From: Bacteroidales bacterium
GTDB lineage: Bacteria; Bacteroidota; Bacteroidia; Bacteroidales; UBA932
Length of the DNA: 43,085 nucleotides
Assembly (NCBI GenBank): GCA_017437125.1
Contig: JAFSBV010000006.1
Span: 1-43,085, forward strand
Direction of reading: 5' to 3'
Shown: positions 26,855 to 28,654 of the stretch, piece by piece
Layout of the letters: each line of letters opens with the position of its first letter
How positions within the stretch are numbered: position 1 is the stretch's first letter
The notes under the pieces: model-generated
Database searches by the model: none
What the model was told of the DNA's origin: nothing
What the model saw: the letters and a program-made list of their open reading frames with translations, nothing else
Translations under genes and position numbers: made by a program

Positions 26855-26893
26855 TATTCCGGGAGCCACCATCCGGTCTCAGTTCCCGGAATA
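26855..26893. terminator. inverted repeat between GH125 and the convergent regulator gene
   Basis: TATTCCGGGA at 26855-26864 and TCCCGGAATA at 26884-26893 are perfect 10-bp arms with a 19-nt loop. It lies 4 bp after the GH125 stop and overlaps the last codons of the convergent gene. No T-run follows on either side; it may end or protect transcripts from both directions. Confidence 0.5.
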
Positions 26894-27568
26894 TTCCAGC
26901 TCTTCAAGCAGATTCCTTACATATATGCTGAGATTGGTGTCATGACCGTTCAGTCCCAGTTTTTTGCGTATATCGCAACCGATATGGTAATGTCTTTTCA
27001 CATTTGTGAAGGATGTTACCATTTTTCCGTTCAGACCTATTGCATAAAGACAGCAGAATTCAACTTCCATTTCATCCAAACCCTTGTCGGTCAGATGTTT
27101 TATGAATCTTGGATATGATGTGTTGAATATTATGCGTGTATGTCTTATGAATTCCTTTCTGTCATTCATTATCGCATTCAATGTCTGTGAAGCCTTCTTT
27201 TCAAAGAATGAGTCATGAAGTGCTTCACTCAGAACGAACTGGTCGATTATCCTCAGACGCTCGTTGATTATCCTTATACCTTCCTTGTTTCTGATATTTG
27301 TTCTTCCCAGTTCTTCCCGTTCCATCATCAGTTCATCGAACTGTTTCCTGAGAACTCTGTTCTCTGACTCCTTGTCGGCAAGCTGTCTCCTTATATTGAC
27401 GATGCAGATCAATGATGTCATGAGCATCATCACTCCTATGCATATGGCAGATATGATGATATATGTCCGCGCTTGAGCCGTAATCTCGTTGATTGTTCTC
27501 TGATCCATGCATGACGAGCTTGACAACATGTTGAATATGAGGATTTGAATCAAAGTAAGTCTTTTCAT
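26879..27568 (-). CDS. membrane-anchored coiled-coil protein with LuxR-like HTH domain
   Basis: 229 residues. A hydrophobic N-terminus (MKRLTLIQILIFNML) may be a signal sequence. A transmembrane helix lies at ~36-58 and a charged coiled coil at ~60-105. The C-terminal ~80 residues (YPRFIKHL, LDEMEVEFCCLYAIGLNGKMVTSF, HIGCDIRKKLGL) resemble the end of large Bacteroidales TPR/HTH membrane regulators, whose last helices act as a LuxR-type DNA-binding unit. The usual periplasmic TPR sensor is absent, so this is a minimal version or a remnant. Its apparent leader of about 240 nt contains the hairpin at 27596-27664. Regulation of the adjacent mannosidase operon is possible but not shown. Confidence 0.75.
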   Translation of the reverse strand: MKRLTLIQILIFNMLSSSSCMDQRTINEITAQARTYIIISAICIGVMMLMTSLICIVNIRRQLADKESENRVLRKQFDELMMEREELGRTNIRNKEGIRIINERLRIIDQFVLSEALHDSFFEKKASQTLNAIMNDRKEFIRHTRIIFNTSYPRFIKHLTDKGLDEMEVEFCCLYAIGLNGKMVTSFTNVKRHYHIGCDIRKKLGLNGHDTNLSIYVRNLLEELEYSGN

Positions 27569-27595
27569 AGGAATGTGGTCTTGTCATTTATGAAC

Positions 27596-27664
27596 GGCAC
27601 AGGATCATTCTTAACCTGCTCGTCATGTGGTCGAAAAATGGTGGTGTCAGAATTCTCCTGTGCC
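27596..27664 (-). promoter_or_regulatory. leader hairpin with a 37-nt loop, likely RNA control element
   Basis: On the minus strand GGCACAGGA (27664-27656) pairs with TCCTGTGCC (27604-27596). A GA/GA internal loop, which forms sheared pairs only on this strand, is followed by ATTCT/AGAAT. The loop (27648-27612) holds ACCACC, TTCGAC and GAGCA, the same motifs in the same order as the 5' arm of the RNA at 28032-28064. It sits 28 nt before the start codon of the regulator gene, where folding or pairing could affect translation. Confidence 0.55.
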
Positions 27665-27963
27665 TTGTTTATGCGTTTACAATTATGATACCTTTCAAAC
27701 TGTTGGTATCCGGTCGCATTCGCCCGGTTTCATTCTGAGATTTCGGATTCTGATACTGTTGTTTCATGGTGATATAGGTTTTAATGTTAAATAATCTGAA
27801 AAATGAAAATGCCGTCCAAATTTAACATGAAGTTAATGTGCAATCAATTGAAAAAGTTTGACATAAGATTATTTTTTGGAGCTGATGTACCTGATTACCA
27901 GTATGTTGCTCATATGCTTTCAAGGGATGTCGAGATAAAGTTTGCCAATCTCTTCTTTATGAC
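27665..27963. other. rest of the divergent intergenic region
   Basis: Holds the minus-strand promoter at 27817-27847 and no convincing gene. A 46-codon ATG frame at 27827-27967 (+) starts MKLMCNQLKKFDIR; its stop runs into the next promoter and no leader signal supports it. A partial echo of the RNA motifs (TTGCTCATA at 27906-27914, GTCGA at 27929-27933) lies here. Confidence 0.35.
27817..27847 (-). promoter_or_regulatory. promoter of the LuxR-like regulator gene
   Basis: On the minus strand TTG (27847-27845), a 20-nt spacer, then TAAATTTG (27824-27817), close to ideal Bacteroidota consensus. Transcription would start near 27812 and give a leader of about 240 nt before the start codon at 27568. 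Confidence 0.6.
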
Positions 27964-27993
27964 TTGAAATGTGGGATTATATGGTTATATTTG
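27964..27993 (+). promoter_or_regulatory. ideal promoter of the structured RNA
   Basis: TTG at 27964-27966, exactly 19 nt, then TATATTTG at 27986-27993: full agreement with TTG-N19-TAnnTTTG. The same arrangement precedes the tRNA-Phe gene in this window. The start would be near 28000. Confidence 0.7.
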
Positions 27994-27999
27994 CATAAA

Positions 28000-28163
28000 T
28001 GAATTTGAAAGCATAATACATTCCTGTCATTACCACCGGAATTCGACATTTATATTTATGAGCAGGATGTACGGGAAAGCGCGTGTCAGGCACGGGCTTG
28101 TTTCCGTTTGCTCATAAGTGGTCGAATACTTTGGTGGTGCGGTTCTTGCCCGTGTCTTTTTTT
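28000..28163 (+). ncRNA. structured small RNA, about 165 nt, family not recognised (rod-like, possibly 6S-like)
   Basis: Starts after an ideal promoter and ends in a run of seven T. The core folds into one long rod: ACCACC 28032-28037 with 28133-28138; ATTCGAC 28041-28047 with 28121-28127; TTATGAGCA 28056-28064 with 28109-28117; ACGG-AAA 28071-28078 with 28101-28107; apex 28079-28085 with 28091-28097. An 8x3-nt asymmetric loop sits mid-rod. A rod with a central bubble recalls 6S RNA (ssrS), but the expected closing stem of 5' and 3' ends is not visible, so I do not assign it. A separate -7 element before dut argues that it is independent, not just a dut leader. Confidence 0.6.
28089..28163 (+). 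terminator. terminator-like end of the small RNA, competing with its apical stem
   Basis: GGCACGGGC at 28089-28097 can pair with GCCCGTGTC at 28148-28156 (one G-U), followed by seven T at 28157-28163. The loop of 50 nt is unusually long, and the left arm overlaps the segment that closes the apical hairpin, so the two folds exclude each other. Confidence 0.5.
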
Positions 28164-28196
28164 GTCGTTTCTATAGGACTTGATCTTTGATTGATG

Positions 28197-28204
28197 TAAA
28201 TTTG
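28197..28204 (+). promoter_or_regulatory. TAAATTTG -7 element of dut-murF
   Basis: Perfect TAnnTTTG, 18 nt before the dut start codon. The nearest TTG is 14 nt upstream rather than 19, so the -33 part is weak. Confidence 0.45.
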
Positions 28205-28222
28205 CAGTAAATCAGAATCACA

Positions 28223-28654
28223 ATGAAAGTAAGAATTGTCAACCGATCATCATATCCGACTCCGGCATATGCGACAGAAAAATCAGCCGGTATGGATCTC
28301 AAAGCAGATATTCAGGAACCTTTGACGCTGGCTCCTCTTGAAAGGGCAATGATTCCTACAGGGCTTTATATCGCTCTTCCGGATGGGACGGAAGCGCAGG
28401 TACGTCCACGTAGCGGACTTGCAGCAAAGCACGGTATTTCAGTACTGAATGCTCCCGGTACGATCGATGCCGACTACAGGGGAGAAGTGAAGGTTATTCT
28501 TGTCAATCTCTCAAATGAACCGTTTGTGGTCAATCCGGGAGAAAGAATCGCCCAGATGGTTGTGGCAAGATATGAGAAGGTGGAGTGGGATGAGGTAGAG
28601 GTGCTCGATGAAACCGAGAGGGGTGAAGGTGGTTTCGGATCAACAGGCAGGTGA
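28223..28654 (+). CDS. dut: deoxyuridine 5'-triphosphate nucleotidohydrolase (dUTPase)
   Basis: 143 residues, normal for the trimeric enzyme. All five motifs are visible: AGMDLKAD (I), [11 protein letters not shown] (II), [13 protein letters not shown] (III, with the catalytic Asp and substrate Tyr), GERIAQMV (IV) and the C-terminal [10 protein letters not shown] (V) that closes over the phosphates. It hydrolyses dUTP to dUMP and pyrophosphate, keeping uracil out of DNA and feeding dTMP synthesis. murF follows with one base between stop and start. Confidence 0.97.

Follow-up and report, generated by a model that had tools for sequence, protein, structure and literature searches.

The stretch of DNA analysed here (the window, 43,085 nt) carries, between a regulator-like gene and dut, two predicted hairpins that contain the same motifs in the same order. 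The regulator-like gene lies on the minus strand (26879..27568) and encodes a protein of 229 aa, the closest homologues of which have about 545 aa. The dUTPase gene dut (28223..28654, plus strand; PF00692, E 8.1e-35) lies downstream of a predicted hairpin RNA (28000..28163, plus strand; ends predicted), which was placed by its fold z score and by a match to the model R2 described below. The long RNA hairpin announced in the earlier note is present (-58.1 kcal/mol, z -4.5). Along the plus strand it comprises a 5' arm (28032..28064, from the fold and duplex energies), an apical hairpin (28079..28098, from folding), a 3' arm that is the complement of the leader loop (28109..28138, from the motif pattern and duplex energies), and the 3' strand of a terminator with its U-tract (28148..28163, from a terminator scan and the folds). 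The 3' strand of the apical hairpin (28089-28097) is predicted to be able to pair alternatively with the terminator strand.

Upstream of the RNA, a consensus match of the form TTG-N19-TATATTTG (27964..27993, plus strand) agrees with the Bacteroides -33/-7 promoter consensus as quoted in PMC7366714. Judged by its sequence, the RNA would have both a promoter and a terminator of its own. On the leader strand a consensus-type promoter, TTG-N20-TAAATTTG, is found at about 27817-27847 (minus strand). Near-ideal promoters in opposite directions had been proposed for the two units; matches of the Bacteroides type do occur on both strands. A scan for E. coli-type promoters yielded 5 sites versus 5.3 expected, which is chance level.

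The second hairpin lies in the minus-strand leader of the regulator-like gene (27596..27664, loop 27617-27645), as had also been noted; it folds at -25.4 kcal/mol (z -3.5) and has a counterpart in seven other species. A pattern search on the plus strand places the ordered motifs TGCTC, GTGGTCGAA and GTGGT at 27617-27645 and at 28109-28138, the positions first given for them. Direct local alignment, plus strand with plus strand, of the 112-nt leader region and the 167-nt RNA region gives a score of 21, reached by none of 3000 dinucleotide shuffles. When 1520 segments of the window were scored on both strands, leaving aside the RNA's own surroundings, no other segment did as well. The alignment is not confined to the loop but reaches into the terminator stem. 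With the minus strand of the leader set against the RNA 5' arm (inverted orientation), the score is 10, reached by 2122 of 3000 shuffles. Of the likeness first drawn to both arms, that to the 3' arm thus holds and that to the 5' arm falls within the range of shuffled sequence, so the significant match sits in the 3' arm. The motif correspondence between leader and RNA is real beyond chance.

The label 'LuxR-like' for the neighbouring gene finds no support, as no helix-turn-helix (HTH) family is matched in Pfam at E up to 1, nor in NCBIfam. In NCBIfam the BT3442 family comes closest, far under its cut-off, with E 1.8e-4 for the window protein and E 4.8e-15 for its homologue in the related genome G024; a diverged HTH domain is possible. 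No solved relative of the G024 homologue was found at E up to 1. Compared with the 545-aa homologue, the window protein lacks about 315 residues; its start and membrane segment are retained, as is the C-terminal part. A TPR identity for the N-terminal part of the long homologue was considered and dropped, since its Pfam matches (E 0.036 and 0.044) are under the cut-offs; we speak of a lost N-terminal part. The reading frame at 26879-27568, shortened from about 545 to 229 aa, is intact, and the shortened protein might act without that part.

An Rfam 15 scan of the window returned a single match, a tRNA, and within 27500-28260 only matches at E 6.9-10, which were taken as chance. 6S RNA, or Bacteroidales-1 (RF01693), was rejected as an identity for the hairpin RNA, as it gave no match to 27500-28260 up to E 10. 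Nor did any Rfam 15 model overlap the RNA in 14 further loci (8 with members of the wide family discussed below and 6 more), a negative that covers the window and these 14 loci, a minority of the wide-family loci.

Conservation of leader and RNA in the genus

A DNA search for the RNA in 61 genomes matched, besides the genome of the window, G024 alone. A relaxed version of the motif pattern matches 8 of 400 species genomes of the genus, a sample drawn from a larger group, and the pattern read backwards matches none of the 400. Five of the eight genomes contain the pattern twice in the same order, at a distance of 492 to 829 bases; the remaining three show it once, the second copy having been missed through a changed letter or spacing. 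When the loci are read, all eight have both the RNA and a leader hairpin with a complementary loop. The earlier note had proposed relatives that keep one element and lose the other as evidence against the pairing. The pattern search, which would miss loci where both motifs had drifted away, found no genome with one element alone among the 400; outside the clade of eight, however, the RNA family occurs without the leader partner.

The elements of the locus follow in this order: regulator-like gene (minus strand), leader hairpin, a secreted-type gene (minus strand; 124-130 aa) in seven of eight, RNA (plus strand) and dut (plus strand). The start of dut lies 90 to 321 nt after the start of the RNA 3' arm in seven of eight; in G265 a minus-strand frame of 390 aa separates RNA and dut, which starts 1333 nt after the start of the 3' arm. 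At the site of the RNA promoter all eight species have a TAnnTTTG -7 box, TATATTTG each time, and seven have a -33 TTG at a suitable distance. The full promoter pattern was found for neither RNA nor leader in G265.

The secreted-type gene was found neither in the window (best tblastn match E 0.035, elsewhere) nor in the rest of its genome, and its close homologues (E below 1e-20) occur in 7 of the 400 genomes of the genus, exactly the other seven; six further genomes of the 400 hold weaker ones. Pfam matches to this gene, seen for one of two proteins, are all under the cut-offs (GBD_IRG7_N E 2.8e-4, DUF3244 E 0.013). With the secreted-type gene gone and the regulator-like gene truncated, the window has a reduced form of this locus, which the relatives possess more completely. 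Its copy of the pair looks decayed, to judge by sequence, and G322 or G400 should be the better models.

The leader stems differ strongly among species and remain paired, and the loop is nearly invariant. In the seven fuller loci the leader loop begins 20-41 nt past the stop of the secreted-type gene and 40-55 nt separate its end from the first ATG of the gene that follows. The spacer around the loop consists mainly of hairpin stem, leaving little room for another promoter, which argues that the leader strand is the RNA. Six of the seven fuller loci, G265 being the one where none was found, have a TTG...TAACTTTG promoter match upstream of the secreted-type gene. Transcription of that gene should therefore include the leader strand.

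The leader on its plus strand shares the plan of the RNA's 3' half and has similar stem lengths. On that likeness, the leader probably arose by duplication of this half, the neighbouring operon reading the copy from the opposite strand.

A hairpin family with two predicted folds in Bacteroidales

A first model, R1, built on the clade RNA, recovered weak relatives from other genera; in all it matched 7 of 398 family genomes. The shared core was then sought across GTDB species genomes, which returned at least 120 stretches, of which 80 were listed; among the matches listed, 75 carry Bacteroidota names. Six loci (L085, L100, L103, L113, L146 and L147) were set aside by eye and 74 kept. On recheck five of the six had no family match and L103 proved real (E 4.5e-10); L103 is left out of the wide-family counts for context and alternative fold. 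The match at L103:1285-1439 stands in a record labelled Planctomycetia and is, with L087, one of two in records named outside Bacteroidota; it is either a transfer or a mislabelled metagenome bin.

Model R2 was built from 45 wide-family loci with the clade excluded (alignment A4, 45 loci). It nevertheless matches the clade RNAs: that of the window at 28025-28162 (36.1 bits, E 1.9e-5) and those of the seven other members at E 9.5e-8 to 3.1e-10 (134,911 bases searched). The RNA is therefore a diverged member of a wide family. At E 1e-4 or better, R2 matches 98 of 295 genomes of the order and 68 of 183 genera, under strict filters and with ten candidates scored per genome. Three further copies were recorded in the genome of the window and the window copy was missing there, so the genome counts are lower bounds. 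Fuller scoring (E up to 0.01) gave 77 R2 matches in one genome (G436) and 23 in another.

The family has two folds (example locus L134:3271-3422; loci L075-L154 and L195-L304). The long hairpin was assessed in 56 matches from 51 loci (alignment A5), where 94.0% of cells are paired versus 34 to 47% when the partners are slid. There are 272 both-side changes versus a mean of 81 in shuffles (0 of 500 as high), and they fall at 20 of 25 pairs, the core helix included. This alignment leans towards the model structure, the matches having been fitted to the model, and four of the 56 (L196, L201, L209 and L218) are opposite-strand repeats of copies already included. The alternative fold, which was drawn up manually, turns the 3' half into a hairpin that ends at the U-tract and encloses a mini-hairpin, AGGU-8 nt-ACCU. 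Across 44 loci (alignment A6) 92.2% of its cells are paired, with 32 both-side changes, a number that none of 500 shuffles attains (10.5 on shuffling) and that drops to 8 or fewer when the partners are slid; the changes support seven of the eight pairs of the outer helix and also the middle helices. The 4-pair mini-hairpin has no both-side change within these 44 sequences and reads AAGU/ACUU in the window clade. Folded alone, the 3' half takes the alternative fold in 62 of 71 loci evaluated (L120 left out, L137 and L148 giving no evaluation) and gives a terminator hairpin in all eight clade members. Since the apical 3' strand is used in both folds, only one of them can form at a time, as in an attenuator.

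The core of the family varies between copies with matching changes on both sides. When the 7-mers that form the terminator partners were swapped between loci, the mean was 6.08 (highest swap 6.23) versus 6.27 for a locus's own partners, a weak test because the 7-mers are nearly identical everywhere.

Of 71 loci (the 74 less three of the clade), 65 have a co-directional next gene, and a crude rule classes the next gene as signal-peptide-like in 55; the same rule accepts 21 of 65 upstream neighbours and 157 of 483 other open frames. In the two high-copy genomes the next frame was signal-peptide-like in 16 of the 20 found at 30 loci and in 12 of the 21 at 23 loci. The clade departs from this norm, as the gene next to the RNA in the window and six relatives is dut and not one for an exported protein; the secreted-type gene lies on the opposite side of the RNA from dut.

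Several individual loci deserve mention. In G436 (L210, L255-L283) several of the 77 copies precede paralogous exported genes starting with MKKYFLLALLFPLWG or similar, and the core loops of the copies differ by matched changes. Two family copies in the same orientation, about 2.7 kb apart, occur at L107 (L107:575-741 and L107:3254-3420). The RNase P RNA of Millionella massiliensis lies directly upstream of a family copy (L134:2622-3103), and a Group II intron match lies near another (L052:4-96, genome G258). At L053:1753-1816 and L054:1755-1786, DUF805 and DUF805b RNA matches under threshold fall between the family RNA and a secreted-type gene.

Proposed pairing in trans and its alternatives

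In seven of the eight species the duplex of the RNA 3' arm with the leader loop is predicted at -40.1 to -46.6 kcal/mol and that with the RNA's own 5' arm at -26.9 to -31.6 kcal/mol, so that pairing in trans is favoured by 9.2 to 19.0 kcal/mol; with shuffled leader loops the 3' arm gives -10.5 to -11.6 kcal/mol on average. The exception is the window, at -31.3 kcal/mol in trans versus -32.7 kcal/mol with its own arm. Extended complementarity to another putative transcript kept in relatives, the mark of a trans-acting RNA, is thus strong in seven of the eight and weak in the window, and the proposal that the two RNAs pair, well supported in the relatives by these energies and by the presence of both elements in all eight, loses its energetic advantage in the very locus for which it was made. 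In the fuller species both loops carry a mini-hairpin AAGU-8 nt-ACUU (with one pair broken in the G265 leader). Its 8-nt loop reads GGUCGAAU in the RNA and AUUCGACC in the leader, each the full complement of the other, and one fixed letter difference between leader and RNA gives a one-base bulge. The window leader loop is without the AAGU/ACUU mini-hairpin. Covariation of the intermolecular pairing, suggested earlier as a check, is not seen: there is no species-specific co-change, and in a cross matrix every 3' arm fits every leader loop about equally, so that the support for pairing is a matter of conservation.

The hairpin RNA may be read as an RNA of attenuator type which, in this clade, acquired a partner in trans. 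The RNA would adopt either the long hairpin of 5' and 3' arms or the terminator hairpin of its 3' half, and in the terminator state the mini-hairpin would display its 8-nt loop (GGUCGAAU). In an ancestor of the clade the 3' half would have been copied into the spacer before the regulator-like gene; the copy, read on the opposite strand by the regulator-like operon, would form a hairpin, and the loop of that hairpin (AUUCGACC with its flanks) could pair almost perfectly with the 3' arm. We infer that the two RNAs meet by loop-loop contact from which the duplex spreads, and that the regulator-like gene is thereby regulated in trans, most likely with lowered expression through a duplex near its start. 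Equally, the mRNA may draw the RNA out of its long-hairpin state, or the leader might instead switch the RNA and, through it, dut; the direction of regulation is conjectural. The pair of the window would be relaxing, its locus having lost the secreted-type gene and the N-terminal half of the regulator-like gene. Contact between the RNAs in trans is the best reading because the elements are conserved together in eight of eight species, because the loop is kept while the stems drift, and because no comparable trans partner was found beside the other family loci scanned (a higher score at L107 being its second family copy). The explanation as a whole, from two-state RNA and duplicated 3' half to regulation of the regulator-like gene, we judge moderately probable.

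Two other explanations of the shared element we think unlikely. A protein could bind the 8-nt-loop mini-hairpin or its conserved flanks, RNA or leader then serving as decoy, an idea with which the decoy proposed in the earlier note is compatible; the aligned members of the wide family do keep flanks that resemble a protein site (GAAA / A.UUU / AGGU / ACCUC). However, the strand of the leader that is likely transcribed is the complement of the 3' arm, so that a strand-specific binder would meet different letters, and at about 30 nt the match is longer than protein-binding RNA sites usually are. Situated between the secreted-type gene and the gene that follows, the leader hairpin could as well be a plain terminator or attenuator, copied from the terminator half of the RNA, its loop kept for another reason or through recent descent. 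The architecture shared with the 3' half, the reach of the direct alignment into the stem and T-rich stretches after the stem in several species all agree with such an origin. Recent descent, though, fails to explain a loop that is preserved in stems so strongly diverged, and in several species, the window included, the leader strand has weak T-tracts.

That the shared sequence is a DNA operator, for instance for the regulator-like protein encoded next door, seems very improbable: AAGTGGTCGAATACTT is an imperfect inverted repeat present twice per locus in the relatives, but the element lies inside hairpins and downstream of promoter boxes, the RNA family occurs at many loci with other neighbours, and Pfam and NCBIfam recognise no DNA-binding domain in the protein. 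We give still less credence to a functional plus-strand leader RNA, a short second copy of the terminator half that would pair with the RNA's 5' arm. The GA/GA pairs once advanced in favour of the minus strand do not generalise, as the stem folds better on the plus strand in four of eight species, and G-U pairs are more numerous on the plus strand (10 versus 6 within the stems, 18 versus 7 with flanks). This excess, as read from the sequence, fits a plus-strand RNA at least as well as a minus-strand one and leaves the matter undecided; against a plus-strand RNA, a search 20-330 nt upstream of the leader found no plus-strand -7 box in seven of eight species.

Relation to known systems and significance

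IstR-1/tisB is a trans-acting antisense RNA encoded beside its target, and FinP/traJ and CopA/CopT are antisense pairs that interact loop to loop. The RNA described here resembles these in its own putative promoter and terminator, its long complementarity to a neighbouring leader and its recognition in hairpin loops, and differs from them in not overlapping its target and in belonging to a widespread two-state family; unlike in antisense pairs, the target element resembles a duplicate of the RNA's own 3' half. In ChiX/chb an intercistronic spacer pairs with the sRNA and titrates it. The present leader is likewise a spacer between two operon genes that would pair with a small RNA, titration being the feature of ChiX/chb. 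With transcription attenuators the family shares two exclusive, covarying folds that end in a U-tract and a position mostly upstream of a co-directional gene, and it departs from the known ones in its many diverged copies in some genomes. We know of no ligand, leader peptide or protein for the hairpin family.

A literature search with core sequences as words, and of titles, found no description of this family. FopS and GibS, as described in PMC11697453, are paralogous sRNAs of Bacteroides, likewise a multi-copy RNA family of the same order with the common promoter type; FopS gives bands of about 65 and 70 nt, and the present RNA is predicted at about 160 nt and with another structure. HMP2_4205, named in PMC8040213 as a 132-bp Bacteroidetes candidate near TPR genes, might or might not be the same RNA. 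6S RNA / Bacteroidales-1 (RF01693) resembles the family as a long hairpin RNA in the same genomes; the genome of the window has its RF01693 match elsewhere (G000:C69:59221-59402, L059; 29.8 bits versus a cut-off of 60), beside a gene that by eye resembles that of ribonuclease Y. Some relatives have a comparable arrangement, and this match is likely the 6S RNA of the genome.

The pair is an apparent natural example of an RNA whose trans partner was born from a duplicated half of itself, read on the other strand. A bolder proposition, which we put forward as conjecture and think improbable, is that the whole family forms a network of RNA switches. Each copy would be an attenuator, mostly of a gene for an exported protein, its fold set by a copy-specific 7-bp core, and complementary cores in another copy or in an mRNA leader would throw the switch by loop-loop contact; if so, the clade's leader would offer a first clear example of an mRNA that evolved to target a switch of this kind. 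The RNA family is much larger than the correspondence of leader and RNA from which it came to light. Present in a third of the genomes of the order sampled, it may represent a common and unstudied means of controlling surface and secreted proteins in gut bacteria.
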